Source: Arthrobacter sp. C2
GTDB lineage: Bacteria; Actinomycetota; Actinomycetes; Actinomycetales; Micrococcaceae
Assembly: GCA_024207135.1 (NCBI GenBank)
Contig: CP042428.1
Location: 2,852,001 to 2,916,000 of the forward strand
Direction of reading: 5' to 3'
DNA length: 64,000 nt
In this document: positions 30,799-56,501 of the stretch, piece by piece
Position numbering within the stretch: the stretch's first letter is position 1
How the letters are laid out: the number at the start of each line of letters is the position of its first letter
Notes under the pieces: model-generated
The model's database searches: none
Told to the model about the DNA's origin: nothing
The model's input: only the letters and a program-made list of their open reading frames with translations
Program-made: the position numbers and the translations under genes

Positions 30799-31704
30799 GT
30801 GAACCCAAAACTCAACACCCTCCTGACCACACTCTACGTCCTACTGACCGATCGTGTCCTGCCGGACTTGGGATACGACCGCTCGAGCAAACCCGGCCGA
30901 AAGGCCATCTTGAGCGATGCGGAGCTGCTGTGCCTGGTCGTGGCCCAGCACCTGCTGCACGGGCACTCCTCCGAATCGCGATGGGTCCGCTATGCGCGCA
31001 CCCACCTGAGCGGGCTATTCCCCGGAATCCCGCAGCAATCGGGATACAACAAGCGCGTCCGCGCAGCCGGAACACTGATCTCAGCGGTGATCACCGCCCT
31101 GGCCCGGGACACCGAATCCTGGCACGAAATCCTCCGCCTGCTCGATTCCACCCCGGTGCCGTGCGGCACCAGCCGCGAAACCGTCAAGCGCTCGGACCTG
31201 GCCGGGCACGCCGGCTACGGATACTGCGCCTCGCACTCGCGCTACTTCTGGGGCTTCCGCCTGTACCTGGTCAGCACCCCGGAGGGCATGCCGGTGATCT
31301 GGGGGCTGGCCAACCCGAAACTCGGGGAACGCGAGGTCACCGAGGCCCTGCTGCGCCGCGACCACCACCTGGTCCGCGACGGGCAGGTCATCCTCGCCGA
31401 CAAGGGCTTCGCCGGAAGGGACTTCGAGCGGTTCATCGCCGAGGACCTCGGTGCCAACCTGGTGCGGCCGGACCGCAAGGACGAGAAGCCCCGCTTCGGG
31501 AAGTTCGGGGGCATCCGCCAGTGGATCGAGTCCGTCTTCGACAGCCTCAAGGGCCAGCTCGGGCTCGAGCACCACGGCGCCCGGACCCTCGACGGACTCT
31601 ACGCCCGCGTCGCCTCAAAGCTCCTGGCCCTCGCGGCCGGAATCTGGCACAACTGGAAGACCAACGCACCCCGAAAGCGCTCCCTGACCGCCTACGACCA
31701 CTGA
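30799..31704 (+). CDS. IS982-family transposase
   Basis: DDE transposase of 301 residues. The catalytic acids appear as Asp116 in LLDSTPVPCG, Asp201 in ILADKGFAGRD and Glu244 in RQWIESVFDSLKGQ. The segments SRETVKRSDLAGHAGYGY, LEHHGARTLDGLYARV and the C-terminal KRSLTAYDH are shared with actinobacterial IS982 transposases as I remember them. The start is probably the ATG-less GTG at 30799; no strong SD is visible. The gene is full length, so the element may be mobile. Confidence 0.92.
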   Translation: MNPKLNTLLTTLYVLLTDRVLPDLGYDRSSKPGRKAILSDAELLCLVVAQHLLHGHSSESRWVRYARTHLSGLFPGIPQQSGYNKRVRAAGTLISAVITALARDTESWHEILRLLDSTPVPCGTSRETVKRSDLAGHAGYGYCASHSRYFWGFRLYLVSTPEGMPVIWGLANPKLGEREVTEALLRRDHHLVRDGQVILADKGFAGRDFERFIAEDLGANLVRPDRKDEKPRFGKFGGIRQWIESVFDSLKGQLGLEHHGARTLDGLYARVASKLLALAAGIWHNWKTNAPRKRSLTAYDH

Positions 31705-33395: not shown

Positions 33396-34193
33396 TTAGG
33401 CCCGGCTTGCGACGGCGCTGATGCGGTAAGCCGTCAAGCCTCCGTCTACGCGGACATCGGTCCCATTGACCCACCGTGATTGCTCCGAGAGGAGGAACGC
33501 AATGACTTCGGCAATGTCCTCCGGTTCGCCGAAACGTCCGAGCAGCGCCGCGGCACCCTCAACCTTGGCTGCGCCGTGGTCCGCCTTGAAATCGTTAAGA
33601 ATGGGGGTCTGGACGGGCCCGGGACTGACGGAGTTCACGCGGACGCCCGCGGACAAGTTCTCGGCCGCCAGTTCACCGGAGAGCAGCATGACGCATTGCT
33701 TCGAGAAGAGGTAGGATTCCCCGTCGGCTTCCATGGCCCCGGCAACAGCTTCCAGGGCCTTTTCTCGGTTCGGTTCCATTGCGAACACGGCCAACTCCTG
33801 TGCATTGGCGCGCCACTCCCACGCCACCGACGACGCCAGGTTCACGACACTGGAGCCGCGCTCCATCCGGGTGACGAGTGCCCTGGTGAGATCGCGCACG
33901 GCAAACACGTTGATCTCCAATACCGTACGCCAGGGAGCCGTGCCGGGAACGCCCGCGATATTGGCCAGTCCCCCGATTCCCTCGGGCGCCAGGCGGCCCA
34001 CTTCCGAGGCGATCGCTTCGACCCCCTCGAAGGTGCTCAGGTCACCTTGGATGAATGGCCCTTCGAAGGCTTCCGGGACGTTTCTGTCCACGCCGATGAG
34101 TGATGCCCCCAGTCGGCGCAGGTGGGCCGCGGTGGCAGCACCAATGCCGGATGCTGCTCCGGTGATGACGATGGGCTTGCTGGCAAAATTCAT
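33396..34193 (-). CDS. short-chain dehydrogenase, coniferyl-alcohol dehydrogenase (CalA)-like
   Basis: SDR of 265 residues. NAD motif VITGAASGIGAATAAHL at 9-25, ANIAGVPGTAPW near 77, catalytic serine in VVNLASSVAWEW, and the Tyr/Lys pair in ESYLFSKQCV. The run from IGVDRN to ANIAGVPGTA, together with RVNSVSPGPVQTPILNDF and SRWVNGTDVRVDGG, resembles the pseudomonad coniferyl-alcohol dehydrogenase CalA more than generic SDRs. That suggests an aryl or phenylpropenyl alcohol as substrate. It is divergent from the aldehyde dehydrogenase at 34403, which could oxidise the aldehyde formed. Confidence 0.8.
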   Translation of the reverse strand: MNFASKPIVITGAASGIGAATAAHLRRLGASLIGVDRNVPEAFEGPFIQGDLSTFEGVEAIASEVGRLAPEGIGGLANIAGVPGTAPWRTVLEINVFAVRDLTRALVTRMERGSSVVNLASSVAWEWRANAQELAVFAMEPNREKALEAVAGAMEADGESYLFSKQCVMLLSGELAAENLSAGVRVNSVSPGPVQTPILNDFKADHGAAKVEGAAALLGRFGEPEDIAEVIAFLLSEQSRWVNGTDVRVDGGLTAYRISAVASRA

Positions 34194-34402
34194 GTGGGCG
34201 TCCTCGGCGTGTTCGGTGCGGGCAGCGCAGCCCGGTTCAATTCAAGAATGGCGTCTTCCTCGCCACCTCAAGTGTGACGCCAGCAGACCCCATCCCCGTC
34301 CCAAATTTTCAACCAATGGAAATGTGGACGAGACTTCGGCATCCTGTCGGGGATGCTTTCAGGAGAGATCACCGTGAATTTGTTCCGAAAGGACCACCCC
34401 GA

Positions 34403-35824
34403 ATGACTGCAAGCACCTATGACATTTTCGACCCGGCAACCCTGGAGAAAATCGGTGTGGCCCCGCAGCATTCGCAGGCGGATGTCGAGCAGGCGGTCGC
34501 CCACGCCTCTATCGCCGCCAAGGCTTGGGCGTCCGACCTTCCCATGCGCCGCGAGGCACTGCAACGGGTTTCCGCCCTCATCCGCGAACGTCGCGGTGAA
34601 CTTGGAGAAATCCTCAGCCGCGAGCAGGGCAAACCGCTTGCAGAAGCCACCCAGGAGTTTGCGGTGGCTGCGGACGTCTTCGCTTACTACGCGCAATTGG
34701 CCTGGGAGGAATCGGAGAACCTGCCCGACCGCGCCGATCGCCGCCTGAGCATCCAACACCGTCCTGTCGGATTGGTGGGAACCATTACCCCCTGGAACTT
34801 CCCCATTTCCCTGCTTGCGGTCAAGCTCGCCCCGGCACTGGCCGCGGGTTGCACTGTCATCGCGAAACCGGCACCCACCACCCCGCTTTCAACGATCGCC
34901 TTGGTTGAACTCGTGAACCAGGTGCTGCCTCCTCACGTCGTCCAGACACGCACCAGTTCAAACCGTGCGGTCAACGTCGCATTGAGCACGCTGCCCCGGG
35001 TACGCAAGATTTCTTTCACGGGCTCCACCGATGTGGGCATCTCCGTGGCCACCCAGTCGCTGCAAAGCGTCAAACGAGTCACCCTCGAGCTCGGAGGAAA
35101 CGACCCGGCCATCGTCTTGCCCGATGCCGATGTCGCAGCCACAGCGCGCGGCATTGTCGCCAGCGCATTCCGCAACGCCGGACAGGTCTGCATGGCCGTC
35201 AAGCGCGTCTATGCGCCACGCTCCCTTGAAACCGAACTGACCGAGGCCATCAGCGCCGAGGTTGCCAAGCACGTCCTGGGCCACGGCGTTGCCGAGGGCA
35301 CCACCATGGGCCCCATGCACAACGCCTCCCAGCTCGCGACCGTCCAGGACATGATCGACCAGGCCCTCTCCTCCGGTGCCCGGGTTGTCCATGGCAACAA
35401 CCGCGGCACGGACCTGCCCGGATATTTCCTCAGCCCGACCGTTATTGCGAACGCCAGCGACGGGATGAGAATCGTTGACGAGGAACAGTTCGGAAATGCG
35501 CTGCCCATCGTCGGCTTCGACGACGAAAATGCCTTGATCCGGATGCTCAACGCCCAGGAATTCGGCTTGGGTTCCTCGCTCTGGACGCCCGACGAAGAAC
35601 GCGCCCATGAGCTGGCCTCGCAGTTGGAAACCGGAACGGTGTGGATCAACCAGCACACCGTCGTGGAACTCGATGCGCCTTTCGGCGGCTGGAAAGCCTC
35701 AGGCGTCGGGCGGGAACGCGGACGCTGGGGACTCGACGAGTACCTCGAAACACGAACCATCAATGTGCGCGACAATGTGCACCAAACCCAGCAGAAGGAG
35801 CCACAACGTGGACACTCCCTTTGA
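34403..35824 (+). CDS. aldehyde dehydrogenase
   Basis: NAD(P)-dependent aldehyde dehydrogenase of 473 residues, of the general succinate-semialdehyde / aromatic aldehyde group. [29 protein letters not shown], the base Glu in LELGGNDPAIV and the catalytic Cys in RNAGQVCMAVKR are all present. The substrate-channel loop before SFTGST is atypical (VVQTRTSSNRAVNVALS instead of the common VVTG). Start is the ATG at 34403 with AAAGGA upstream; longer starts would run into the divergent SDR promoter. The stop overlaps the start of the metallo-hydrolase gene by 17 bases, so the two form an operon. Confidence 0.88.
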   Translation: MTASTYDIFDPATLEKIGVAPQHSQADVEQAVAHASIAAKAWASDLPMRREALQRVSALIRERRGELGEILSREQGKPLAEATQEFAVAADVFAYYAQLAWEESENLPDRADRRLSIQHRPVGLVGTITPWNFPISLLAVKLAPALAAGCTVIAKPAPTTPLSTIALVELVNQVLPPHVVQTRTSSNRAVNVALSTLPRVRKISFTGSTDVGISVATQSLQSVKRVTLELGGNDPAIVLPDADVAATARGIVASAFRNAGQVCMAVKRVYAPRSLETELTEAISAEVAKHVLGHGVAEGTTMGPMHNASQLATVQDMIDQALSSGARVVHGNNRGTDLPGYFLSPTVIANASDGMRIVDEEQFGNALPIVGFDDENALIRMLNAQEFGLGSSLWTPDEERAHELASQLETGTVWINQHTVVELDAPFGGWKASGVGRERGRWGLDEYLETRTINVRDNVHQTQQKEPQRGHSL

Positions 35825-36746
35825 ACTCATCACTCTCGGCACCGCCGCCGGCCCGGCCATCCGCGGCCATGAAGACGGGATTGCCAGCGCGTTGCGGGTG
35901 GAGGATTCCTTCTACATGGTTGATTTCGGATTGGGCGCAACGCGTGCGGCCCACGAAGCGGGGCTGCGCGGCAAGAATTTCCGCGCCGGCTTCATCACCC
36001 ACCTGCATTCCGACCACGTGGTCGAGCTTCCCGCGTTCCTGCTGTGGAATTGGGGCGCGCCGGTGGACGGTTTTACGTCTCCCATCGACATCCTGGGTCC
36101 GGGGCAAGATCCCGGCCACCCGCGCGGCAAACAGCTGTCGGGAACCATGGGCATGGTCCAACATTGCCTCGACGCCTATTCCTACGATGTCGACATCCGC
36201 ATCACCGATGAAGCCCGTCCAAACCTGCGCGAGATCGTCCGTGCCCGCGAGATAGAGGTGCCGCACCCCGACAGCATAGTGCCCTTTGACGTGTACGAGG
36301 ACGACCTGGTCAAGGTCACCGCGGTGCTAGTGAAGCACCCCCCGATCTTCCCGGCGCTGGCCTTCAGGTTCGACACCGCATACGGCTCGGTCACGTTCTC
36401 GGGCGACACCGCCGAGTCCGAGGCGCTGGCAATCCTGGCGCAGGACACCGATGTCCTGGTTCATGAGGCAGTCAACCTGGATTTCTACAGGGCACAGGAC
36501 TTCAGCCCAGCATTCATCAACCACCAGATGATCGCCCACACCTCACCGGAGGGCGCAGGACGCGTCGCGGCGAGCTCTGGCGCCCGTTCTCTGGTGCTTT
36601 CCCACTTGGCCGGCATTGCCACCCCCGAGCAGTGGAAGTCCCGCGCCGAAGCGACGTACTCCGGAAAGATTACCGTCGCCACCAGTGGGCAGCGGTTTGC
36701 CTTGAACAAGGTTGCCCGTCCGGAATCGATGGTTTCCGGGATGTAA
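35808..36746 (+). CDS. MBL-fold metallo-hydrolase
   Basis: Metallo-beta-lactamase fold hydrolase of 312 residues. The metal-binding motif is THLHSDHVVELP (about residues 64-75), with further ligands likely in SGDTAES and SHLAGI. The overall form is that of RNase Z / AtsA-like hydrolases, a group that includes ester, sulfate-ester and lactone hydrolases. The start is a GTG seven bases after AAGGAG (35795-35800), inside the end of the aldehyde dehydrogenase gene. Its operon partner and the neighbouring P450 module suggest it opens an aromatic ester or lactone, but this is inference. Confidence 0.82.
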   Translation: MDTPFELITLGTAAGPAIRGHEDGIASALRVEDSFYMVDFGLGATRAAHEAGLRGKNFRAGFITHLHSDHVVELPAFLLWNWGAPVDGFTSPIDILGPGQDPGHPRGKQLSGTMGMVQHCLDAYSYDVDIRITDEARPNLREIVRAREIEVPHPDSIVPFDVYEDDLVKVTAVLVKHPPIFPALAFRFDTAYGSVTFSGDTAESEALAILAQDTDVLVHEAVNLDFYRAQDFSPAFINHQMIAHTSPEGAGRVAASSGARSLVLSHLAGIATPEQWKSRAEATYSGKITVATSGQRFALNKVARPESMVSGM

Positions 36747-36766
36747 CTTCTCTCGCAACGCTCCTT

Positions 36767-36834
36767 GGCCTTCCGTCATCGAACCCGCGGCCAGCCGGAA
36801 CCAATTCCGGACTGCCGCCCGAAGACGGAAGGCC
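36767..36834. terminator. hairpin after the metallo-hydrolase gene
   Basis: GGCCTTCCGTC (36767-36777) and GACGGAAGGCC (36824-36834) form an 11-bp stem enclosing a second small hairpin, CCGGAA/TTCCGG at 36795-36810. It starts 20 bases after the stop codon and ends with TTGCC. Confidence 0.5.
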
Positions 36835-37671
36835 TTGCCATGTCCGAACCACGATATCCAAAGCCCTCCGCTGCAGGTCTCGACGATCTATGTCCATGGC
36901 CTGGCAATGGTTTGACCCATCTATGGGTTCTTTCAAGGGGCCAGCAATATTGCGAGTGGGGACCACCCCGGGATAGCGTAAATATTCCCCATGCGACCCA
37001 CGAATGCCATCGTTGGGATCCACTTGGCCATTGACAGGTGACCGTTCCCGTGACGCGAGCCGGCCGGGCCGGAAATGGACCGATTGCCCGGGACGAACCG
37101 TTGGGCGTTGCAAGTCCCTGGAAGAGCGTGGCCGGTTCGATCTTGCCGGGGTGGTGCGGCCGCTGCTGGAAAGCGCTTGAGCATATTGCTTGGGCACATG
37201 TCGCGCCGCTGCGGCTGGACGGTGTCCGGCACAGTCGAAGTCTTAAGGCGATCCGACGCCCGCGGCCCCCTCGGCGTCCACGACGACACGGTCCTGGACC
37301 GGATCATCCACAACTCCATTTGAATCGATGCTGGACGCTGCTGACAACATGCGGGAGAAGATCGGCATCGTCAGGCACGGTTGGCTTCGTTGCGGCTAGG
37401 CGGCTCCCATCCAAGCAGATGCTTGCCCCCAACGGCAATATCGTTGGACGCCAAGCACGATAATGGGTGGTCTCCAAAACGTAGAATACTCAGGTTCAGG
37501 GCACGTGCCCCCGAAACGCCGCACGACAAGAGCAGAACGGCCGTGGATCGCTCGACTGTCCCCACGAGGAACATCAACTTCTCGGCAACGGCCCCGCGCC
37601 ACATGCAGCTGGCTGCCCCTCACCATGTGGTGCGGGGCAGCCATCTCAGATCGCGGGAACGGGCGCCGAGC
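36835..37671. other. 837-base stretch without an intact gene
   Basis: No frame here has both a start signal and a recognisable product. A plus-strand frame around 37250-37320 ends in VHDDTVLDRIIHNSI, which recalls the C terminus of IstB-type ATPases, but the match is too short to call. The stretch is probably decayed DNA between two converging gene groups. Confidence 0.45.
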
Positions 37672-39039
37672 TCAGGCCTTGAGCTTGAGGTCCAGTCCCA
37701 GCTTCGTCCTGTCGCGTTGCTGGTTGATGAAAATCATCGACAGCACCCCGATCAGGGCCAAGGCGCCGCCCGTGTAAGCGAAGGCGTTGAGGTAGCCCGC
37801 GCTTGGCACCGCCGCGGATCCAATCATGAATCCTACGAACATCGGCGCGACCAAGCCCCCGGTCGTCAGGAAGGCATTGGTGATTTGCAGAACGGCTCCG
37901 CGTTGCTGGATCGTGGTCATTTCCGAGGCAACCAGGTATGTGACGGCAAAAAGCGCGGGCGCCGTGCCGAAGCCAAACATGAAACAAATGATGGAAACGG
38001 CATCGATGTTCGACAGTGTTCCAACGATGACCATGAGGCCGCCAAACGTTGCGGCGCCTCCCAACACCACGCCTCGCGACACTCGCGTGGGGATCCCCTT
38101 GTTGACCAGCACCTCGGTCAGCCAGCTCAGGCCGATCGTCGCGATGAAACCCCAAATTGCCGGCAGGGCTATCAATGAACCCGCCTGCTGCGTGGACATT
38201 CCCATGGCGTTTTCGTAGTAGGCCGGAAGCCACGTGGTGGCAACGGTAAACGTCCAATAGCCAAAGAATGAACACAACACGGCCAGGATCCAGCTCGGGG
38301 TCAAGAACGACCGCATGTACCGCACCGGCGCGTCGGACGCCTGGACCTTGGCGGTGTCGAGCGTTTTTACTGCTTGCCCCTCGATCTCGAGTTCGGCTTG
38401 GACGGAAGTGTAGGGTCCTTCCTTGCCGATAAAGAGCCACAGGATCGACCATACGACGCCGACGATGGCCAAGAACACGAAAGTGGATTTCCACCCGAAC
38501 TCGGCATTGACCCACGCCAATACTGGGGCGAACGCGACAATGCCCAGCGTGACTCCCGACGAGGCGACAGCCGCGGGAGTGGCCGACCGCTTGGCAGGGA
38601 ACCACTTGTACACCGAGTGCATGATGACCGGAGCCAGCGGACCTTCCCCGGCTCCAAGGACCAGGCGGCTGGCCCACAGCGCAGGAAGCGAGGCAAAGAC
38701 GAAGATGGGCACCTGCGCGACCGACCAAATCAGGCACAAGGTCAGCAAGATCCATTTGGACTTGACCCTGTTGGCAATCGGAGCAGCGACAAACTGCGCG
38801 ATCCCGAAGAGCATGAACACGGCGGAACCGAGCAACCCGAATTGTTGCGGGGTGATGTGGAGGTCGTGCATCAACGGAACCGCCACGATACCCAGAATCG
38901 CCTTGTCCGCCCAGCTGACCATCATCAGGACCAGGAGTGCCGCGGTGGTCAGCCAACCGTATCGCTTGCGGCGCCCGGGGGTCCACGTGGCAGGGTCGCT
39001 CTTGGCGTTTTTTGGGCGCGGTAAAGCATCGAGTGACAT
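37672..39039 (-). CDS. MFS transporter (ACS-type, likely aromatic acid)
   Basis: Major facilitator of 455 residues with 12 predicted membrane helices. Helix 1 is LTTAALLVLMMVSWADKAILG; motif A is seen in weakened form as PIANRVKSKW; ASRLVLGAGEGPLAPVIMHSVYKWFP is the conserved loop of the anion:cation symporter branch (hexuronate, phthalate, 4-hydroxyphenylacetate carriers). The start is the ATG at 39039 with GGAG eight bases upstream. It lies 47 bases after the P450 gene in the same direction, so it most likely brings in the P450 substrate. Confidence 0.87.
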   Translation of the reverse strand: MSLDALPRPKNAKSDPATWTPGRRKRYGWLTTAALLVLMMVSWADKAILGIVAVPLMHDLHITPQQFGLLGSAVFMLFGIAQFVAAPIANRVKSKWILLTLCLIWSVAQVPIFVFASLPALWASRLVLGAGEGPLAPVIMHSVYKWFPAKRSATPAAVASSGVTLGIVAFAPVLAWVNAEFGWKSTFVFLAIVGVVWSILWLFIGKEGPYTSVQAELEIEGQAVKTLDTAKVQASDAPVRYMRSFLTPSWILAVLCSFFGYWTFTVATTWLPAYYENAMGMSTQQAGSLIALPAIWGFIATIGLSWLTEVLVNKGIPTRVSRGVVLGGAATFGGLMVIVGTLSNIDAVSIICFMFGFGTAPALFAVTYLVASEMTTIQQRGAVLQITNAFLTTGGLVAPMFVGFMIGSAAVPSAGYLNAFAYTGGALALIGVLSMIFINQQRDRTKLGLDLKLKA

Positions 39040-39086
39040 AGCGTTGCTCCAAAAGTAATAGGGGCATTGGGCCCCCGGCCGGATGA

Positions 39087-40289
39087 CTATCTTTGGGTGG
39101 TGATGCGCACGGGCATCGACTCGAATCCGCGCAAGACATTGTGCAGAATCGGTTTCGGCTCGCCGACAAGTTCGATCGATACAACCTTCTCCAGCAGTTG
39201 CTGCAAGACGATTTCCATTTCCATTCGCGCAATCGGCTGGCCCACACATTGGTGCAGGCCCATGCCGAACGCAACGTGGCCCGAAGAAGTGCGTTCCAGC
39301 GAGAACTCGTTCGCGTCGGCTCCCCATTTCTTGGGGTCGCGGTTGGCCGCGCCGATGAAGACCTGGACCTTGGATCCGGCAGGAATGCCGACCCCGCCCA
39401 ACTCCGTATCGACAGTGGTCGTCCGGTGGAACTTCTGGAATGGCGATTCCAGTCGCAGGGCCTCGTCAATGGCGAACTTGGCCAGCGACGGTTCCTTGCG
39501 AAGGCGTTCCCAGGCTTCCGGATGGCGGGCCAAGACCGAGAGCGTGTTTCCGATCCCGAAGATGGTCGTGTCCACACCCGCCGAAAGCAGCGCACGGACC
39601 AAGAGCGTGGCTTGCTCTTCCGTGATCAATCCTTCGCCGACCTTGGCCCAGATCCCCGCGCCGAAGCCAGAATCGGTCAGAGACTCGCGCTTGCAGGCGT
39701 TCATGACCACGCGAGCGTGTTCATCGCCTTCAGCGAAGGCTTGGTGGTAGATGTAGTTTTCGGGACCGAACGCGTTGAACACCATGTTGCCGTAGGGAAG
39801 CAGGTGCTCGCGCCCTTCCTGCGGAATGCCGACGGCATCCGGAAAAACCTCGATCGGGTACTTTTCGGCGAGGTCGGTAATGGCGTCGAAGGTGTTTCGT
39901 TGCACCAACGCCTCAACCAGTGAAACAGCCGGTGCGGTGAAGTCCTTGCGCAAGGCACGGACCGTTCCAGGGTTGATGACACCGGTCAGCGCGCGGCGCA
40001 TCAGCGTATGGATCGGCGGGTCTGATTCCAGGATGCTTGGCGGGCGCCAGCCGTCGTCCTTGCGGATGTCGCGTGGCCCCAGCCCACCGGAGGACACGAA
40101 CGTCTCGAAGTCCGTCAGCACTTCGTAGACCTCGTCGTAGCCCGTGATGGCGTAGGTCTGTTCCGATTCCAGCCAGGATACGGAACCGGCCTCTTGCAAG
40201 GAAGCAAGGAACGGGTAGGGGTTGAGCAGGTGCTCTTCATTGTACGGGTCGCCCGTGAAGACGATGGGTTCGCTGGTGGATGTAGTCAT
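39087..40289 (-). CDS. cytochrome P450, CYP199-like (para-alkoxybenzoate O-demethylase type)
   Basis: Soluble bacterial P450 of 400 residues. The heme ligand is Cys348 in FGMGLHQCVG, the ExxR pair Glu276/Arg279 in DEALRLES, and the I-helix acid-alcohol pair Asp240/Thr241 in LLSAGVDTT. Long stretches match CYP199A2/A4 of Rhodopseudomonas as I recall them: WRPPSILESDPP, DAITDLAEKYPIEVFPDA, QEGREHLLPYGNMVFNAFGP. The carboxylate-binding residues of CYP199A4 (Arg92, Ser95, Arg243) correspond to Arg82, Ser85 and Arg232; the Ser244 position is Ala233. This supports a para-substituted benzoate (for example 4-methoxybenzoate) as substrate. The start follows AGGAGAG with an 8-base spacer. Operon with a VanB-type reductase upstream and an MFS carrier downstream. 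Confidence 0.88.
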   Translation of the reverse strand: MTTSTSEPIVFTGDPYNEEHLLNPYPFLASLQEAGSVSWLESEQTYAITGYDEVYEVLTDFETFVSSGGLGPRDIRKDDGWRPPSILESDPPIHTLMRRALTGVINPGTVRALRKDFTAPAVSLVEALVQRNTFDAITDLAEKYPIEVFPDAVGIPQEGREHLLPYGNMVFNAFGPENYIYHQAFAEGDEHARVVMNACKRESLTDSGFGAGIWAKVGEGLITEEQATLLVRALLSAGVDTTIFGIGNTLSVLARHPEAWERLRKEPSLAKFAIDEALRLESPFQKFHRTTTVDTELGGVGIPAGSKVQVFIGAANRDPKKWGADANEFSLERTSSGHVAFGMGLHQCVGQPIARMEMEIVLQQLLEKVVSIELVGEPKPILHNVLRGFESMPVRITTQR

Positions 40290-40309
40290 GGAAGTTTCTC
40301 TCCTGGTCT

Positions 40310-41326
40310 TTAAAGATCGAGCACAAGTCGGTCGCACCCGGCAGCGGCACGCGAGACGCACACCAGCATGACTTCGTTTGCGTCCTTGTCGGCTTCGGTC
40401 AGCACCGCGTCGCGGTGTTCGGGCGTTCCCGAGAGGATGTTCGTCTCGCACGTTCCACACAGGCCGGCACGGCACGATGAAAGAATGCGCACACCCACCT
40501 TTTCGACGGCGTCGAGAATGCTCTCGTTGGTCTGCACCGTGACGATGCGCCCGGCCTTGGCCAATTCGACCTCGAAGGGAGCGCTAACGGAACCTGCTCC
40601 CAAGGTGTCGGCCGAGAAACGCTCAAGGTGCAGTGCACCTGGAGGCCACCCCATGCACAGGTCCTCGATGGCGCCCAGCATGCCGCCGGGGCCGCAAGCA
40701 TAGACCAGCATGTGGGCCCGCGGCATGCCCAGGATCGCGTTCAGGTCCAGGCGGCCGACTTCGTCCTCCGGATAGAGGTTGACCTTGGTGCTCCCGTACG
40801 CGTCTTCCAGCGATTGGGCAAACGCCATGGAATGCCGGGAACGGCCGCCGTAGACCAGGCGCCATTCCCTCCCCGCGGCTTCGGCCGCTTCAATCATCGG
40901 GATGATCGGCGTGATGCCGATTCCCCCTGCGATGAACAGGTACTTCCGCGAATCAATCATGGGGAAGTTGTTCCGCGGCGCCGAAATGGTCAGCGGGGTT
41001 CCGGCAACCAACTTTTCGTGAACGGCCTCCGAGCCGCCACGGGAGTCCGGAACGCGCAGCACCCCGATACGCAGGACTTCACGGTCGTTTAGATCGGAGC
41101 ACAAGGAGTACTGGCGTGTGAGTCCGTCACCGAGATGGACGTCGATGTGGGCCCCTGGGGCCCACTCGGGAAAGCTCTCGCCGTCAATGCGCCGCAATAC
41201 CAGTGAGACCACTTGGTCAGCCACGTGCTCGGCCGCGTCAACAACGACGTCCAACAGCCCAGCTCCGCTAGCCACCGGCTTTACCGTGTCAACGGCTGCA
41301 CCGAGCCGCCCAGTTTGAGGCGTCAT
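40310..41326 (-). CDS. phthalate-dioxygenase-reductase-type oxidoreductase (VanB-like)
   Basis: Single-chain electron-transfer protein of 338 residues with the order FMN domain, NAD(H) domain, C-terminal plant-type [2Fe-2S] ferredoxin. RQYSLCSDLND and the following GVLRVPDSRGG form the flavin site, FIAGGIGITPIIPMIE the nucleotide site, and SSCRAGLCGTCETN with the later MLVCVSRA supply the four cluster cysteines. Such reductases normally serve Rieske oxygenases (vanillate, phthalate). Here it is 20 bases upstream of a P450, so it probably feeds that enzyme directly. Start at the ATG eight bases after AAGGAG; an ATG two codons earlier is too close. Confidence 0.9.
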   Translation of the reverse strand: MTPQTGRLGAAVDTVKPVASGAGLLDVVVDAAEHVADQVVSLVLRRIDGESFPEWAPGAHIDVHLGDGLTRQYSLCSDLNDREVLRIGVLRVPDSRGGSEAVHEKLVAGTPLTISAPRNNFPMIDSRKYLFIAGGIGITPIIPMIEAAEAAGREWRLVYGGRSRHSMAFAQSLEDAYGSTKVNLYPEDEVGRLDLNAILGMPRAHMLVYACGPGGMLGAIEDLCMGWPPGALHLERFSADTLGAGSVSAPFEVELAKAGRIVTVQTNESILDAVEKVGVRILSSCRAGLCGTCETNILSGTPEHRDAVLTEADKDANEVMLVCVSRAAAGCDRLVLDL

Positions 41327-41447
41327 GTCCATCGCTCCTTATTGCTACCGACCCGATCATCTTTCCGTCGGGCCACAACAACGATCGTAAGTGCGCTGCA
41401 ACACAGCCCAAGCAGCGTCTTCCATCCAATGGAAAGACGGCAAATAC

Positions 41448-42239
41448 TCAGGCAAGCTCGCGGCTAACCAAACTGCGGGCGATACCACGGGCTGCAATTC
41501 GGAGGACCGGAACCACTGTCCCGACCGGCGGAGGGTCCTTCTGGGAGACCACGCCGATGGCCGCCGCGATCTTTCCCGAGGGCAGGATGACGGGGACGGC
41601 CAAGCCGAAGTTGTCCTCGCCGCTTTCTTGGTTGGAGACACCAAAGCCTTGTTGGCGCACGGCTTTCACTTCTTCGGCCAGCCTGGACCGGTCCGTGATG
41701 GTGTGCCGGGTAAAAGCCTCCAGCTTGCCGATCCGCGGAAGCAGCTCCATTCCCTCATAGGCCAGCATCACCTTGCCCGCGGCACTTGCATGCAGGCCAA
41801 GGTGCGATCCCGGCCGTCGGAACGGGGCCCCGGCTCGCGTCCCGGAAATCCGGTCCAACAACAGGACCGAGGACCCGTCGAGAATAAAGAGGTTGACCAC
41901 GTTTTGCGTCACGAACAAGACATCTTGCATGTGCGGCGCCGCAATCTCGGCGATGTCCTTCTGCACGGGGGCCAGGGTCGCGATCTGCCAGAGCCGCTGG
42001 CCAATGACGAAGTCGCTGCCGGACCTCTCAAGCGCTCCCCATCGCACCAATTCGGCCGACAACCGATGTGCGGTGGCGATGGGCAGCGCGGCTCGGCGGG
42101 ACAACTCACTCAAGGACAAGTGCGTATGGCGTTCGTCGAAGGCCCCAAGAATCTCCAGCGACCTCCAGGTCACGGAATCCGCGGCCTTCACGACCCTGCC
42201 TTCGGCGTCGATTCCCCGACGCGGGGTTGCGTTGGCCAT
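41448..42239 (-). CDS. IclR-family transcriptional regulator
   Basis: IclR regulator of 263 residues. Winged helix at about 20-85 (TWRSLEILGAFDERHTHLSLSELSRRAALPIATAHRLSAELVRWG), followed by the effector domain (ISGTRAGAPFRRPGSHLGLHASAAGKVMLA, then EVKAVRQQGFGVSNQESGEDNFGLAVPV). Members with this architecture respond to aromatic acids such as protocatechuate, 4-hydroxybenzoate or vanillate. It lies 121 bases upstream of the reductase/P450/MFS genes in the same direction and is the likely local regulator. Start ambiguous between GTG 42245 and ATG 42239. Confidence 0.88.
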   Translation of the reverse strand: MANATPRRGIDAEGRVVKAADSVTWRSLEILGAFDERHTHLSLSELSRRAALPIATAHRLSAELVRWGALERSGSDFVIGQRLWQIATLAPVQKDIAEIAAPHMQDVLFVTQNVVNLFILDGSSVLLLDRISGTRAGAPFRRPGSHLGLHASAAGKVMLAYEGMELLPRIGKLEAFTRHTITDRSRLAEEVKAVRQQGFGVSNQESGEDNFGLAVPVILPSGKIAAAIGVVSQKDPPPVGTVVPVLRIAARGIARSLVSRELA

Positions 42240-42395
42240 TCCCACGATTCTTTCTCACCAAGACGAGCTCTGCCTCGCTGCCAGTCTACCGGCAGGCCTC
42301 AATCCGAAACTGGCACTCCTTCGCTCCGAAGCCGGTAGCACCGCCACCGATCTACACACAGAGCCCCGGCTTCGGGGAACTTTCCTGGCTGTGGT

Positions 42396-43193
42396 TTAGG
42401 TCAGCGACCAGGAGCGCTTGGAAAGCCCGAACCAGAAGCCGTCGATCGCGCTCTTGGCCTCGATGCCTCCCGAGGCATATGCCGCGCCCAGGGCGACATA
42501 GAGCGGCGCCCAGTGCTCGGAGCGCGGGTGCGCCTCGCGCGCGGCCGGGGCCTTGTGCAGGAAGTCGAGGATCGAGTCAACGTCCCCGCGGGCCATGGCT
42601 TCTTCGGCCCAGTGGTCGAACTCGCTCGAGGCCGTCGGCGGGGTGGTGTCCGGTCCTGCTGCCGGGTTGAACCAGCGCAGGTTGTGCGTGGTGAAGCCGG
42701 AGCCGACGATCATGGTCCCGCGCTCGCGCAGCGGGGCGAGCGACTGGCCCAGGGCAAAGAGCCCCTGCGGGTCCAGCGTGGGCATCGACATCTGCACCAC
42801 CGGCACGTCGGCCCCGGGGAACATTTCCTTCAGCGGCACATAGGCGCCGTGGTCCAGGCCGCGGGTCTCGTCGCGCTCCACGTGGTGGCCGTGGTTGCCG
42901 GTCAGCCGGGCGACCTCGTCGGCCAGCTCCGGCGCCATCGGCGCGTCGTAGCGCACGTCGTAGTAGTGCTGCGGGAAACCCCAGAAGTCGTAGACCAGTT
43001 CCTGCTTGCGGTGGGTGGCGCTCAGCGACACCGGCGCGTTCTCCCAGTGCGCGGAGACCATCAGGATGTCCTTGGGCTTTTCCATGGTTCCCGACCAGGC
43101 CGCAAGCTCGGCGGTCCAGGTGGCGTCGTCGGCGAGCGGCGGCGCGCCATGGGAGAGGAAGAGCACCGGTGGGAGGTCAGCTGCAGTAGTCAT
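42396..43193 (-). CDS. DODA-type extradiol ring-cleavage dioxygenase
   Basis: Class III (LigB-type) extradiol dioxygenase of the 4,5-DOPA dioxygenase group, 265 residues. Metal ligands are visible: His15 in FLSHGAPPL, His49 in SAHWE, His115 in GLDHGAYVPL and the histidine in SEHWAPLYVALGAAY. Members cleave catechol-like rings, but several are of unknown in vivo substrate. The gene stands alone; the next gene (benzaldehyde dehydrogenase) is upstream in the same direction but separated by a strong hairpin and a MarR-like operator. Confidence 0.87.
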   Translation of the reverse strand: MTTAADLPPVLFLSHGAPPLADDATWTAELAAWSGTMEKPKDILMVSAHWENAPVSLSATHRKQELVYDFWGFPQHYYDVRYDAPMAPELADEVARLTGNHGHHVERDETRGLDHGAYVPLKEMFPGADVPVVQMSMPTLDPQGLFALGQSLAPLRERGTMIVGSGFTTHNLRWFNPAAGPDTTPPTASSEFDHWAEEAMARGDVDSILDFLHKAPAAREAHPRSEHWAPLYVALGAAYASGGIEAKSAIDGFWFGLSKRSWSLT

Positions 43194-43219
43194 GGGACCA
43201 GTCTAAACCAGATTAGTTG

Positions 43220-43232
43220 ATGCTTCAAGCAT
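43220..43232. promoter_or_regulatory. palindrome upstream of the DODA gene
   Basis: ATGCTT-C-AAGCAT is a 6-1-6 palindrome 27 bases before the dioxygenase start; it overlaps TTGA-TGCT-TCAA. The TTGA/TCAA spacing resembles MarR-family operators. No MarR gene is in the window. Confidence 0.4.
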
Positions 43233-43278
43233 TTCCTGGTGGCAATCGGCACATGCCCATCCCGGCGAACAGCCCACC

Positions 43279-43318
43279 GGGAGGCCCCGGCGGTTCCATT
43301 GAACCGCCGGGGCCTCCC
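43279..43318. terminator. 18-bp hairpin downstream of benzaldehyde dehydrogenase
   Basis: GGGAGGCCCCGGCGGTTC (43279-43296) pairs perfectly with 43301-43318 around a 4-base loop. It is 16 bases beyond the stop of the minus-strand gene at 43335 and probably terminates it, although the T-run is weak. Confidence 0.7.
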
Positions 43319-43334
43319 CTTCCGGGACGCTGCC

Positions 43335-44795
43335 CTAGAACGGGTAGGGGGCGATCTCCGGACGCATGGTCAGCCACTGCGTCTCGGTGAACGCCTCCAT
43401 GTTGGCCGAGGCCCCGCCGATGCGCCCACCGTTGCCCGAATCCTTGACCCCGCCGAACGGCGAGTTGGGCTCGTCAGAGACGGTCTGCTCGTTGATGTGG
43501 ACCTTGCCGGATTCAACCCTGTCGGCGATCTTCATGGCCATGCCCACGTCCCCGAGGATGGACAGCGAAAGCCCGTAGCTCGATGCGTTGGCCATCTCAA
43601 CCGCCTCGTCGATAGTGGAGAAGCTGCGCACCGGGGCGACGGGCCCGAAGATCTCTTCCTTCCACGCAGCGTGCTCCGGGTCCAGGTCCGCAAGGACCGT
43701 GGGCGGGTAGAACCAGCCTTCGCCGCGGGTCCCGCCGGCCGCCAGCCGCGCGCCGCCCGCAACCGCCGCCTGCACCATGGAATCGATCCGCTCCAGTTGC
43801 CGCCCGTCGATGATCGGCCCGATCGCCACGGTTCCGGACTTCGGGTCGCCGACCGGCAGGTTCTTCGCCTTTTCGGCCAAGGCCGCCACGTAGTCCTCGT
43901 AGATGTCCTGGTGCACGATGTGCCGGCCGGTGGCCATGCAGATCTGGCCCTGGTGCATGAACGAACCAAACGCCGCCGCCGAGGCGGCCTTGGCCAGGTC
44001 AGCCCCGGGCAGCACGATCATGGCGCTGTTGCCGCCCAGTTCGAGGTGGGCTCGCTTGAGCAACCGTGCGGCGCTTTCGCCGATCTTGCGCCCGGCGGCC
44101 GTGGAACCGGTGAAGGCGATGACCCGCACCTCGGGGGCCTCGACCACCGCGGCACCGACCTCCGCTCCGCCGGGAAGCAGGTGCAGCAGGCCCTCGGGCA
44201 GCCCGGCCTCCTCGAAGATCCGCATGATCGACACCCCCGCGCAGACAGAGGTGCGCGGGTCCGGCTTGAGCAGCACCGCATTGCCCAGCGCCAGCGCCGG
44301 GGCGACGGCGCGGATGGCCAGGATCAGCGGGAAGTTGAATGGCGCGATCACCGAGACGACACCGACGGGGCGGCGGCGGGCGAAGGACCAGCGTTCCTCG
44401 TTGGTGGTCAGCACGTCCCCGGCGGGCATCGAAGGCAGGGCGGAGGCCTCGTAGCATTCGTTGGCCGCGGTGTGTGTCTCCAACCCCGCCTTGGCGGGAA
44501 TTCCGCCGGACTCGCGCACCAGCCAGCCGTTGACCTCCTCGGCATGCTCTTCCCACAGCAGCCCCGCCTTGCGCAGCACCGCTGCCCGCTCCTCGGGCTT
44601 TTTCGCCGCCCAGGACACCTGCGCCTTGGCGGCCGCGGCGGAGGCACGCAGCACGTCCTCGGCGGAGGCCACCCCCAGTGTGCCAAGCACGTTCCCGGTG
44701 GCCGGCTCCACGACATCCTGGGTGCCGGCACCGCCGGCCACCCAGCCATTGACGTTGATCTTCGAGTTCCAGAGTGATTCTTCAAGCAGTGGCAC
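43335..44795 (-). CDS. benzaldehyde / vanillin dehydrogenase
   Basis: Aldehyde dehydrogenase of 486 residues in the benzaldehyde-vanillin dehydrogenase group. SVIAPFNFPLILAIRAVAPALALGNAV, IAFTGSTAAGRKIG, Glu in HLELGGNSAMIVL and the catalytic Cys in FMHQGQICMATGRHIVH are diagnostic of that group, as is the C-terminal NSPFGGVKDSGNGGRIGG. The start is a GTG at 44795 behind AAGGA at a normal distance; longer frames cross the promoter. Divergent from the LysR gene at 44995. Likely product: a hydroxybenzoate or vanillate that joins the protocatechuate route. Confidence 0.87.
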   Translation of the reverse strand: MPLLEESLWNSKINVNGWVAGGAGTQDVVEPATGNVLGTLGVASAEDVLRASAAAAKAQVSWAAKKPEERAAVLRKAGLLWEEHAEEVNGWLVRESGGIPAKAGLETHTAANECYEASALPSMPAGDVLTTNEERWSFARRRPVGVVSVIAPFNFPLILAIRAVAPALALGNAVLLKPDPRTSVCAGVSIMRIFEEAGLPEGLLHLLPGGAEVGAAVVEAPEVRVIAFTGSTAAGRKIGESAARLLKRAHLELGGNSAMIVLPGADLAKAASAAAFGSFMHQGQICMATGRHIVHQDIYEDYVAALAEKAKNLPVGDPKSGTVAIGPIIDGRQLERIDSMVQAAVAGGARLAAGGTRGEGWFYPPTVLADLDPEHAAWKEEIFGPVAPVRSFSTIDEAVEMANASSYGLSLSILGDVGMAMKIADRVESGKVHINEQTVSDEPNSPFGGVKDSGNGGRIGGASANMEAFTETQWLTMRPEIAPYPF

Positions 44796-44968
44796 TTTGT
44801 GGTTCCTTATCTGGTGGGCATGGATGCGGCATTCCGGCGCGGGCCGGCGGGGCGTGGAATCATCGCGCGCGGCGCTCCCCCTTGCCGTGCGCCCCGCGCG
44901 TGACCCGCCCCACCTCCACGCTATGCCAGGACAACGCATCGGTCCAACGAATCCACGCGCAATCGGTC

Positions 44969-44983
44969 ATCGATCACTTCGAT
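44969..44983. promoter_or_regulatory. LysR box in the benzaldehyde dehydrogenase / LysR divergent region
   Basis: ATCGA-N5-TCGAT is a perfect dyad that contains the T-N11-A core expected of LysR regulators, 12 bases upstream of the LysR start codon. Confidence 0.5.
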
Positions 44984-44994
44984 AGAGTGGGCGC

Positions 44995-45912
44995 ATGAGC
45001 ATGGACCTGAATCTGCTGCGCACCTTCCTGGAAATCTACGAGGCCCGAAGCGTCACCCGGGCGGCACAGGAACTCTCGCTCACCCAGCCGACGGTCTCGC
45101 ACACCCTGGCCAGGCTCCGGACCCAGCTGGGCGACCCGCTCTTTGTCCGCGGTCCCGGCGGACTCGAACCCACTGCCCGAGCCAACGAACTCTTCCAGGT
45201 CTTCCGCTCCGCGGTGGACAACATCGACGCGGCGGTGGATTCGAACTCCGCCTTCGATCCGGCCACCACGCGGCGCACCTTCCGCATCTGCCTCTCGGAC
45301 ATCGGCGAGGTCATCTTCCTGCCGCGGATCATGGCCCGCCTGGCAGCGCTGGCGCCGGCCGCCAACCTCGAATCGGTGCCCATGGCCGTGGATCGCATCC
45401 CGCATTGGCTGGCCCACGGCCAGGTCGACGCCGTGCTGACCTCTCTGGTGCTCGGCGGCGGCGCGCGGCGCGAGGGCGTGATCAAGGACAGGTACGTCTG
45501 CCTGCTGCCGCACGCCTTGGCCCCGAAGCGGGGCAAGCTCACGCACGCGCAATTCGACGCGCTGGGATTCGTGACCATCGACCCCACGGCCGGGCACGGG
45601 CAGATCGAGGAACGGCTGGGGGAATCCGGCATCTCGCTGCGCACGGCATTGCGCGTGCACCATTTTTCCGTGCTGCCCTCGGTGCAGCTCGAATCCTCGC
45701 TGGCCTCGGTGGTCCCGCTGGAGATCGCCGAGCGCTTCTGCCGGCAGTGGCCCCTGGTCCACCGCGAACTTCCGGTGGACAGCCCCGCCTTCTCCGTGGA
45801 CCTCTACACCGACCACAAGATCGCCGCGGGCGGGCCGGTGCTCTGGTTCCGCGAGCTGGTGCGCGATGCCCTGCGCGAGATGCCTTCGGCGCTGGGTCCG
45901 GCGGGACCCTGA
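44995..45912 (+). CDS. LysR-family transcriptional regulator
   Basis: LTTR of 305 residues in the NahR/NodD-like branch. The HTH is LLRTFLEIYEARSVTRAAQELSLTQPTVSHTLARLRTQLGDPLF (about 7-50), with the MDLNLLRTF start typical of regulators of aromatic catabolism; the C-terminal effector domain begins near residue 95 (TFRICLSDIGEVIFLPRI). It is divergent from the benzaldehyde dehydrogenase and convergent with an aromatic-acid carrier, and LysR-type boxes precede both. Probable inducer: an aromatic aldehyde or acid. Confidence 0.88.
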   Translation: MSMDLNLLRTFLEIYEARSVTRAAQELSLTQPTVSHTLARLRTQLGDPLFVRGPGGLEPTARANELFQVFRSAVDNIDAAVDSNSAFDPATTRRTFRICLSDIGEVIFLPRIMARLAALAPAANLESVPMAVDRIPHWLAHGQVDAVLTSLVLGGGARREGVIKDRYVCLLPHALAPKRGKLTHAQFDALGFVTIDPTAGHGQIEERLGESGISLRTALRVHHFSVLPSVQLESSLASVVPLEIAERFCRQWPLVHRELPVDSPAFSVDLYTDHKIAAGGPVLWFRELVRDALREMPSALGPAGP

Positions 45913-45940
45913 GCCGGCGCCGGGTCCTGGGCACGAAAAA

Positions 45941-45992
45941 GGGGCGCGGTTCCCGGGGTTTCGCACCAGCGAATCCCCGGGAACCGCGCCCC
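45941..45992. terminator. bidirectional terminator between LysR and MFS genes
   Basis: GGGGCGCGGTTCCCGGGG (45941-45958) pairs perfectly with 45975-45992, an 18-bp stem. On the minus strand it is followed by TTTTTCG, so it is a strong terminator for the transporter gene and probably also serves the LysR gene. Confidence 0.85.
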
Positions 45993-46048
45993 CATTGCCT
46001 ATCCGGATCGTTTTCCCCGGCGGCGTTTCGCGCCCGGGGGCAAGGCCC

Positions 46049-47275
46049 CTACGCCGACTGGGTTTCGAGCACCGGCTCGTCGGCATCCTTCTGCGCGGCC
46101 GGCTTGGGGATGGCGGCCACGGCGAGCATGCCGAGCAACGCCGCCCCGGCGAAGAGGTAGAAGCCCCACGGGTAGGCGTGGCCGCTGGCCACCAGCAGGC
46201 CGGTCAGGCCCGGCCCGGCGATGGCTCCCAGGCGTCCCACGCCCGCCACCATGCCCATGCCGGTGCCCACCACGTGCTTGGGGTAGATGTATCCGACGAA
46301 TCCGTAGACCAGCACCTGCGCACAGAAGACGAAGAAGCCGGTCACCAGGACCACGGCGTTGAGCAGCAACTGGCTTTCCATCCGGATGCTCAGCAGGGCC
46401 AGCAGCACCGCGGCAGCCGTGAACCAGAACATCGTGGTGCCCTTGACGCCGCGCTTGTCCGCAATGCGTCCCCCGAGCAGCAGCCCGGCGATCGCACCGA
46501 CGTTGAGGATCAGCAGTAGCACCAGGGAATCCGCAACGTTGTACCCGGCGCCGCGCATCAGCTGCGGCAGCCAGGTGTTCAGCCCGTAGACCAGTAGCAG
46601 TCCCATGAAGGCAGCGACCCACAGGCCGATGGTGGAGCGCGCAAGCCCTCCGGTGAACAGCGTCGCCATGCTGGATTTTGGTGCCTTCGTGCCAATGTCC
46701 TTGAGTCCCACGGCGTGGGTCTCGGGCAGCTTGGCCCACATGAACGGGAGCACCACCAGGCCCAGCGCGCCGCCGATGTAGAAGAGTAGGTGCCAGTCGG
46801 CATGGGCAAGGATCGCGAAGAGCGAGGCGGCCACGGCGCCGACGTGGTAGCCGGTCATGGTGATGGTCGAGGAGTGCGCACGGGCGTTGGAGGCAGCGGC
46901 TTCCTGCATCATGGTGATGGCCACGGGCATGCATGCGCCCATGCCGAGGCCCGCGATCATGCGCGTCGTGGCCAGCAGGGCGACGTTGGGCATCAGCGGG
47001 AACAAGATGGTGAAGATCGAGAAGATCAGCACGCAGGCCATCAGCGGGTTGCGGCGTCCGTAGCGGTCCGAGATCGGGCCGATCAGCACGGCGCCGGCAC
47101 CGACGCCGACCAGCGAGATCGTGGCGATGAAGGTCGCGTCCAGTGCGGTGATCCCCGCGTACGAGGTATCGATCAGCTGCGGAATCGAGGCGGAGAGGGC
47201 GACAATGTCGAAGCCCTCGAAAACAACCGTCAGCCAGCACAGGGCAACGATCCATTTATTGCGGGTGGATTTCAT
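46049..47275 (-). CDS. MFS transporter, aromatic acid:H+ symporter (AAHS) family
   Basis: Twelve-helix symporter of 408 residues. The AAHS hallmark in the first helix is VVFEGFDIVALSASIPQL (the conserved aspartate is present), followed by IGPISDRYGRRNPL and RMIAGLGMGACMPVAITMMQEAA. Relatives such as PcaK, BenK and MhbT carry 4-hydroxybenzoate, benzoate or 3-hydroxybenzoate. Neighbours are benzaldehyde dehydrogenase, an aromatic-type LysR and, 2.3 kb away, a 3-hydroxybenzoate 4-monooxygenase, so 3-hydroxybenzoate is a good candidate. Expression is probably controlled through the dyads at 47373-47410. Confidence 0.88.
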   Translation of the reverse strand: MKSTRNKWIVALCWLTVVFEGFDIVALSASIPQLIDTSYAGITALDATFIATISLVGVGAGAVLIGPISDRYGRRNPLMACVLIFSIFTILFPLMPNVALLATTRMIAGLGMGACMPVAITMMQEAAASNARAHSSTITMTGYHVGAVAASLFAILAHADWHLLFYIGGALGLVVLPFMWAKLPETHAVGLKDIGTKAPKSSMATLFTGGLARSTIGLWVAAFMGLLLVYGLNTWLPQLMRGAGYNVADSLVLLLILNVGAIAGLLLGGRIADKRGVKGTTMFWFTAAAVLLALLSIRMESQLLLNAVVLVTGFFVFCAQVLVYGFVGYIYPKHVVGTGMGMVAGVGRLGAIAGPGLTGLLVASGHAYPWGFYLFAGAALLGMLAVAAIPKPAAQKDADEPVLETQSA

Positions 47276-55888: not shown

Positions 55889-55937
55889 GTTCGTTCCTCC
55901 TCGGTTGTTTGGTTCGCTGCGCCGTGCCGCGCAGACA

Positions 55938-55973
55938 CCGATGTGCCGGACCCGTTGGGGGCCGGCACATCGG
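55938..55973. terminator. 12-bp hairpin between ectC and ectD
   Basis: CCGATGTGCCGG (55938-55949) pairs perfectly with 55962-55973. It lies between the ectC stop and the ectD start on the minus strand; it may attenuate read-through into ectD. No T-run. Confidence 0.5.
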
Positions 55974-56026
55974 GAAGCCCTGCCTGGGAAAGAGGCGGGC
56001 AGTTCCAGGGGGTCCCCGTGGGGGGG

Positions 56027-56431: not shown

Positions 56432-56501
56432 GTGTCCTCCAGGGGATGGGTTCGGTGTGGTGGTTGGCCGTGGCCAGCCGGGTTTGGTGGGTGGGGGCCG
56501 G

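Follow-up and report, generated by a model that had tools for sequence, protein, structure and literature searches.

We describe here seven genes at positions 33,396-42,245 of a 64,000-nucleotide stretch of DNA from Arthrobacter sp. C2 (contig CP042428.1, positions 2,852,001 to 2,916,000; hereafter the window), which lies within a single-contig genome of 4.56 Mb (G000:C1:2852001-2916000). Profile searches of the window place the genes in two arms: a short-chain dehydrogenase/reductase (SDR), an aldehyde dehydrogenase (ALDH) and a metallo-β-lactamase (MBL)-fold hydrolase in the first, and a major facilitator superfamily (MFS) transporter, a cytochrome P450, a reductase and an IclR-type regulator in the second. 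Comparison with related genomes supports well the view that this set, referred to below as the module, is a conserved regulon feeding 4-hydroxybenzoate, and of this we are reasonably confident. The fuller account, in which the regulon would also oxidize p-alkoxybenzyl alcohols or aldehydes to the acid and the P450 would carry out para-O-dealkylation, seems to us about equally likely to stand or to fall. No description of the seven-gene set was found in the open-licence literature.

The module is widespread and its genes travel together. In a scan of named genomes, four of four loci contained the seven genes in one and the same order; Glutamicibacter ardleyensis, at 56-76% protein identity, was among them. 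Among 295 Micrococcaceae genomes, 35 belonging to 14 of 32 genera have the P450 (E ≤ 1e-135) and 39 have the MBL gene (E ≤ 1e-60). Thirty-four of the 35 P450-positive genomes are counted below as module genomes; the one left out (G288) encodes a P450 of 52% identity and a distant reductase without the module. Loci were mapped in 32 of the 34 (the window, L009-L012, L088-L110, L118, L119, L126 and L127), while in G134 and G155 the P450 and MBL genes lie on different contigs and were not mapped. Of the 32 mapped loci, 31 are complete with seven genes; the exception, L110, is a contig of 6.8 kb with six. When L009, which is near-identical to the window, is set aside, the remaining 31 loci show eight gene arrangements, one of them only in the short contig L110, and the two arms are interleaved in nine loci. 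Across 30 loci, the identities of the seven proteins in pairwise comparison are correlated with one another (0.62-0.95). The sole MFS match in L096 adjoins the MBL gene at 61%, as does an extra MFS copy in L091 and L094, and may be a paralogue of the module transporter; another, different MFS gene recurs in 15 loci. Beyond the family, an order-level search (P450, E ≤ 1e-110) gave matches in 14 of 297 genomes, with those of G000 and G045 (61%) of the module type and the other 12 at 47-51% identity, and a class-level search (MBL, E ≤ 1e-55) matched only G000 among 296 genomes. In-frame TGA codons in four distant MBL matches were dropped from consideration, as they were not seen on tblastn re-alignment.

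Both arms share a palindrome, TTTCCATTGGATGGAAA, which occurs in the gap between the divergent SDR and ALDH genes (34306-34322, TTTCCATTGGTTGAAAA on the minus strand) and in the interval between the IclR and reductase genes (41419-41435, TTTCCATTGGATGGAAG on the minus strand). In an exact gapped-palindrome search upstream of the seven genes, TTTCC-N7-GGAAA was the top motif. With up to two mismatches to TTTCCA-N5-TGGAAA allowed, sites were found in the SDR-ALDH gap of 22 of 31 loci, before the reductase in 19/31, before the MFS gene in 12/31, before the MBL gene in 7/31, before the IclR gene in 7/30 and before the P450 gene in 0/31, compared with 0-1% of mononucleotide-shuffled sequences; as the motif was derived from these same loci, its enrichment there is partly by construction. 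Two other observations are stronger than this enrichment. First, only two sites within two mismatches of the 17-base consensus exist in the organism's own genome, and both are within the cluster (seven further sites have three mismatches, versus two for a reversed control; weaker matches in the window, at 36891 in the spacer and at 55069, are of a level at which about one is expected by chance). Second, where loci are rearranged, the palindrome tends to accompany whichever gene heads the transcription unit: considering module genes only, and scoring the shared SDR-ALDH gap for both genes, it lies upstream of 78 of 124 unit heads versus 10 of 92 internal genes, and all 10 of the latter are reductase genes, by gene order behind the IclR gene. 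In the MFS-headed units of L089-L091 and L094 the palindrome is before the MFS gene and none is before the reductase. Because the palindrome is common to both arms, tends to follow unit heads and, at up to two mismatches, is confined to the cluster in its own genome, the cluster is most likely one regulon. The candidate operator would be bound by the cluster's own IclR protein (41448-42245, minus strand; PF01614, PF09339), whose best-matching family is TIGR02431 (PcaR/PcaU/PobR), yet at 115 bits versus a cut-off of 284.75, and whose closest solved relative is 5h1a (2.1e-22).

These results also bear on whether two unrelated neighbouring operons have been grouped by chance. The arms converge in the window and are split by a non-conserved spacer of 925 bp, and two genomes (G050 and G077) retain one arm only, as such a grouping would allow. 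However, the genes stay together through eight arrangements, nine loci have interleaved arms, and the shared palindrome is nearly confined to the module. A chance neighbourhood was rejected on the gene-order and palindrome results; it is already contradicted and hardly credible, and the seven genes are more than chance neighbours.

Several lines of comparison connect the regulon with 4-hydroxybenzoate. A pobA match (TIGR02360 at E ≤ 1e-100, none over the curated cut-off, with at most six candidates scored per genome) was found in 33 of 34 module genomes versus 146 of 261 others (p = 3e-7, relatedness not corrected). In the small genome G025, the module is followed by an aldo-keto-reductase-like gene, a PobR-type IclR gene, pobA, pcaH, pcaG, pcaB and pcaDC (names assigned by eye), and the small genome G099 has the same row with one open reading frame (ORF) of 3.5 kb between it and the module. 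NCBIfam profiles support the IclR gene and pobA of G025 (the latter with NF006091, over cut-off), and pcaD-like genes were found below cut-off in G077 and G099. A pobA match in the organism's own genome stops 60 bp short of the window, and window positions 23-4245 contain pcaH, pcaG and pcaC, all over curated cut-offs, together with a pcaB-like gene that scores below its own; these pobA/pca genes are approximately 29 kb from the module. Given the pobA matches in all but one of the 34 module genomes, and the pobA-pca genes adjoining the module in two small genomes, 4-hydroxybenzoate is strongly suggested as the end product, which PobA and the pca route would take over. For an Arthrobacter, PMC3534580 mentions the use of vanillate as well as pobA/pca, and the term "P450" does not occur in it. 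Benzoate and vanillate were rejected as obligatory products: 18 of 34 module genomes lack a benA match, and benA is not needed for the module, while VanA_C is found in 20 and missing from 15 of the 35 genomes searched for it (the module genomes and G077).

The preliminary description of this DNA had proposed a locus of these seven families ending at 42239 (a few bases short of the end of the IclR gene), with its arms separated by a gene-poor spacer, whose enzymes together could deliver a hydroxybenzoate to pcaHGBDC. The profile searches and the 925-bp spacer without a convincing gene bear out this anatomy, and the conserved co-localization with its shared palindrome and the pobA associations support one functional unit with a product for the 4-hydroxybenzoate/protocatechuate route. 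By its own criterion the proposal would fall if P450 homologues rarely sat beside SDR, ALDH and MBL genes; for close homologues the reverse is seen, given the 31 complete loci out of 32.

In the account that we favour, the transporter would import an aromatic acid and the MBL enzyme would free an alcohol or acid from an ester-type conjugate. The SDR and ALDH would oxidize a benzyl alcohol carrying a para substituent, first to the aldehyde and then to the acid, while removal of the para-O-alkyl group would fall to the P450 and its reductase; an example would be the conversion of p-anisyl alcohol to p-anisaldehyde, p-anisate and finally 4-hydroxybenzoate. The latter would then enter the pca route through PobA.

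The P450 (39087-40289, minus strand; PF00067, 1.6e-31) has an intact heme-cysteine motif (FGMGLHQCVG). CYP families are delimited at more than 40% identity and subfamilies at 55%. Sharing 49% of its residues with CYP199A4 along almost the entire chain and 47% with PbdA, the window protein falls within the CYP199 family and, with its separate clade (support 1.0), outside the CYP199A subfamily and the CYP199A4 and PbdA branches. Some other module P450s reach 51-53% identity to CYP199A4 or PbdA, and named CYP199A members share as little as 51% (in the sections of PMC11530827 drawn on here); the subfamily name would be borderline for the module P450s in this comparison, outside which the A25 and A35 sequences lie. 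The same sections describe PbdA and CYP199A4 as p-methoxybenzoate O-demethylases and Arg84, Ser87 and Ser237 of PbdA as holding the substrate carboxylate; triad variants have reduced p-methoxybenzoate affinity, and loss of either serine permits some p-methoxybenzaldehyde turnover (PMC11530827). In the 33 distinct module P450 sequences, the arginine (Arg92 in CYP199A4 numbering) is always kept and the first serine is kept in 26 and replaced by glycine in seven; the second serine (Ser244 of CYP199A4, Ser237 of PbdA) is alanine in all 33, which leaves the module without the Arg-Ser-Ser triad of CYP199A. All 33 also have a one-residue deletion after position 95 (residue 96 is missing) and phenylalanine in place of Val295 (Val288 in PbdA). 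The window protein keeps the equivalents of Arg84 and Ser87 of PbdA and Phe182, Phe185, Ala248, Thr252 and Phe298 of CYP199A4. An AlphaFold2 model of the P450 had a predicted local distance difference test score (pLDDT) of 34 and was not used for the pocket. In the tree, the 33 sequences form one clade (support 1.0), followed by a sister clade of 16 sequences with the same deletion, alanine and phenylalanine (support 0.995) and then by two relatives with the original residues (support 0.999). Because it belongs to a clade of its own, with one carboxylate-binding residue replaced and an altered pocket, we judge that the window P450 is not an orthologue of PbdA or CYP199A4.

The reductase (40310-41332, minus strand; PF00175, PF00111) is of the phthalate dioxygenase reductase (PDR)/VanB type, with an NAD-binding domain and a C-terminal 2Fe-2S domain whose cysteines are intact. 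Its closest solved chains are 6kbh and 6laa (the C-terminal parts of long P450 chains), then 2pia. CYP199A4 and CYP199A2 use a ferredoxin partner, whereas the partner in the module is PDR-type and adjacent to the P450. These Rhodopseudomonas enzymes (PDB 4DNZ, 2FR7) differ further from the window P450 at Ser244, Val295 and residue 96. Another counterpart is PbdAB of Rhodococcus jostii RHA1, a CYP199A P450 with its cognate reductase (PDB 9G9Q-S; sections of PMC11530827), which shares with the module the P450 family and a link to 4-hydroxybenzoate. That the module is a canonical PbdAB-type p-methoxybenzoate demethylase with accessory genes is nevertheless rather improbable. A PDR/VanB-type reductase adjoins the P450 (a comparison of type, without PbdB's own sequence) and an IclR gene is nearby, as in the CYP199A-like loci L158 and L159, but the 33 module sequences are a clade apart, with the window P450 at 47% to PbdA and the Ser237/244 equivalent replaced, and the module adds the SDR, ALDH and MBL in one regulon.

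The pocket changes weigh against the fuller account: because Ser244 is lost, a residue is deleted and Val295 is replaced, benzoate binding in the module P450s may differ from that of their CYP199A relatives. To be counted with them are the sub-cut-off pobA matches and the derivation of the motif described above, as well as the following. One module genome (G287) has no pobA match, and the pobA enrichment partly reflects catabolically rich genomes, because benA, used as a control, is also enriched in module genomes (16/34 versus 48/261 others, p = 4e-4). In nine of 31 loci the SDR-ALDH gap has no site within two mismatches (three to five mismatches there). G050 and G077 keep the IclR, SDR, ALDH and MBL genes without the P450, reductase and MFS1 genes. 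Finally, a profile scan of L120 and L117 placed their sister-clade P450s next to genes for an IclR regulator and a histidine-ammonia-lyase-like protein, which implies different chemistry. Because the IclR-SDR-ALDH-MBL genes persist alone in G050 and G077, the SDR-ALDH-MBL arm can serve alone, as expected of oxidation of a benzyl alcohol to the acid. In favour of the account, a P450 with the original pocket residues in L158, on a Rhodococcus opacus plasmid, is found in the order IclR-reductase-tautomerase-P450-IclR-pobA. With this locus adjoining pobA, the probable ancestral context points to demethylation of p-alkoxybenzoates; the changed pocket, in contrast, speaks for a substrate shift.

P450s of 47-52% identity occur in other settings. 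The sister-clade neighbourhoods viewed were L120, L125, L117, L141 and L144. L117 also contains a PDR-type reductase gene, and the lyase of L125 was recognized by eye. Visual inspection of L141 (4.2 kb) revealed a reductase and a Rieske-like ORF but no lyase, and L144 (4.2 kb) has neither. The P450/lyase sets (L120:6168-9992, L117:7797-12730 and L125:4353-8199) possibly represent an unrecognized aromatic amino-acid pathway. The organism's own genome encodes a second CYP199-like P450 (G000:C1:2722038-2723204; L124:8042-9205), which shares 41% identity with the window P450 and 54% with PbdA and is adjoined by a PDR-type reductase of its own.

The MBL-fold protein (35808-36746, plus strand; PF00753, PF12706) has an intact metal motif of the HxHxDH type (HLHSDH), and ten checked His/Asp positions are invariant in 30 of 30 loci, as expected of the metal ligands of a dinuclear MBL fold. 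By both sequence and fold its nearest solved relative is an arylsulfatase (8gyg, 2.1e-21), with RNase Z-type proteins next; the fold comparison used Foldseek and an AlphaFold2 model of moderate quality built on four sequences (pLDDT 66.9, predicted template modelling score 0.73), and identity to the arylsulfatase in the fold alignment is 25-27%. An arylsulfatase/RNase Z-like fold would speak neither for nor against a lactone or ester substrate. Plasmid relatives of the protein (17 records) are 34-43% identical, and the five surroundings viewed, one without annotation, are varied, two of them with fumarylacetoacetate-hydrolase and alpha/beta-hydrolase genes. A diverged MBL protein, by eye a relative of that of the module, is encoded at L137:18072-19115, where an MFS gene adjoins it and mhp-like genes (by eye) are close by.

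The MBL protein is central to our second choice after the p-alkoxybenzyl alcohol, aldehyde or acid, one that we consider unlikely. The P450, SDR and ALDH would act in series on the para-methyl group of an anionic aryl conjugate, for example an aryl sulfate or phosphate (CH3 to CH2OH to CHO to COOH), and the MBL enzyme would finally strip the conjugate to leave 4-hydroxybenzoate. This logic presumably resembles that of the cre 4-cresol pathway of Corynebacterium glutamicum, in which a P450, an SDR and an ALDH lead to 4-hydroxybenzoate, together with the phosphotransferase pair CreHI. It uses every enzyme in one line, agrees with the arylsulfatase as nearest solved relative and would explain the retention of Arg92 despite loss of Ser244. 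Furthermore, what we take to be a cre-like set adjoins the half module of G050 (that of G077 is near pobA), and in G276 one is on the module's contig, approximately 40 kb away. On the other hand, CYP199 relatives of known function demethylate alkoxybenzoates, the MBL protein is only 25-27% identical to the arylsulfatase with RNase Z-type folds next, and no sulfate-handling genes were noticed in the module, though none were specifically searched for. The module also differs from cre in having an MBL protein instead of the phosphotransferase pair and another type of P450 and reductase: no CreHI-type pair is among the seven genes or, by eye, the recurring locus families, and CreHI-related genes were found only beside the G050 half module and on the module's contig in G276. 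Cre-like sets were observed, partly by eye, at L137:3676-12763 and L111:9304-15914, near pobA or directly beside the half module; both contain a PRK08296-type protein, an SDR, a ferredoxin reductase and an ALDH, and that of L137 also a phosphoenolpyruvate-synthase-like protein and a P450. In a more specific and very improbable version, the transporter would import an anionic aryl ester such as a p-methylaryl sulfate, the modified P450 would grip the anion by its retained arginine and oxidize the para group, the SDR and ALDH would complete the oxidation to the acid, and the MBL enzyme would remove the handle to release 4-hydroxybenzoate. If true, small phenols would be opened to P450 attack in a second way, alongside phosphorylation by cre.

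The SDR (33396-34193, minus strand; PF13561, 1.8e-34) has TGAASGIG and YxxxK motifs and is divergent, across a 209-bp gap, from the ALDH (34403-35824, plus strand; PF00171, 2.3e-143), whose cysteine region is intact. CalA and CalB oxidize coniferyl alcohol and coniferyl aldehyde, and the module pair is similar in kind. The SDR is near the CalA family (NF009092) but at 238.3 bits it is 3.7 bits short of the cut-off of 242, and its nearest solved relatives are 3α-hydroxysteroid dehydrogenases (1fjh, 1.4e-24); in addition, the module pair is divergent, accompanied by an MBL protein and a P450, and set in a 4-hydroxybenzoate ring context. Two points favour a route in which the SDR and ALDH turn coniferyl- or cinnamyl-type alcohols into acids while the P450 works on the ring: the smallness of this shortfall, and the lyase-like gene near the sister-clade P450s of L120 and L117, a possible hint of cinnamate-like compounds. 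Against it, side-chain shortening genes (CoA ligase, hydratase/lyase) were not seen by eye among the families recurring in the loci, and in G025 and G099 the module is accompanied by pobA/pca as its downstream genes; we regard it as quite unlikely. Given the score of the SDR and its steroid-dehydrogenase relatives, coniferyl alcohol, which the preliminary description had put forward, is not specially indicated. Its view of the P450 as CYP199-like holds, while alkoxybenzoate demethylation, given the lost carboxylate residue and the pocket changes, is no firmer than an inference. Overall, that description is partly supported.

The remaining features of the locus concern its layout and history. 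Gene starts were picked by eye. The MBL gene has a GTG start and overlaps the end of the ALDH gene; the reductase, P450 and MFS genes (the last at 37672-39039, minus strand; PF07690, 7.9e-43; top NCBIfam match TIGR00893, below cut-off) are consecutive, with gaps of approximately 20 and 47 bp. The spacer on which the arms converge (36747-37671) has no convincing gene in ORF calls and no Rfam match, and among nine relatives compared its DNA matches only the near-identical L009 (no match in the other eight). Promoter and terminator scans gave nothing above shuffled sequences. GC content is 0.61-0.63 in the 34-42 kb bins of the module versus 0.64-0.72 across most of the window, with lower values at 8-12 kb (0.58-0.59) and 16-18 kb (0.57). 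GC content at third codon positions (GC3) is 0.72-0.78 in the seven genes versus a median of 0.89 in 33 other genes (p = 4e-7), a comparison biased by a gene caller that kept only ORFs with GC3 above 0.72 and so dropped low-GC3 genes elsewhere. Paeniglutamicibacter psychrophenolicus CC174 (L009) has a P450 with the same sequence as that of the window (100% identity, rounded), and the module is present in four of 15 Paeniglutamicibacter genomes at ≥87% identity. DNA similarity to P. gangotriensis (L010) and MYb227 (L012) spans the module and not the neighbouring LigB/ALDH2/LysR genes. Horizontal movement of the module is plausible from these comparisons.

Beside the module, window positions 42396-47275 encode a LigB/DODA-like dioxygenase, an ALDH, a LysR regulator and an MFS protein, shared among the four named relatives only with the near-identical P. 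psychrophenolicus locus. A transposase-like ORF (by eye) is at 30799-31704, near position ~32646 where DNA similarity to L009 stops, and an FAD-dependent phenol 2-monooxygenase (NF006144, over cut-off) is at 49606-51519. Ectoine-type genes (by eye) lie upstream of the P. gangotriensis module (L010:3600-6385), and genes similar to them (by eye) are at 54989-57797 of the window.

The module thus appears to be a conserved, possibly mobile regulon built around a P450 clade nested beside lignin O-demethylases. Its predicted operator and end product would make the inducer and substrate directly testable. The altered carboxylate site offers a natural set of P450 variants for work on demethylation of lignin streams, and the MBL hydrolase is an unexpected partner for P450 systems of this kind.

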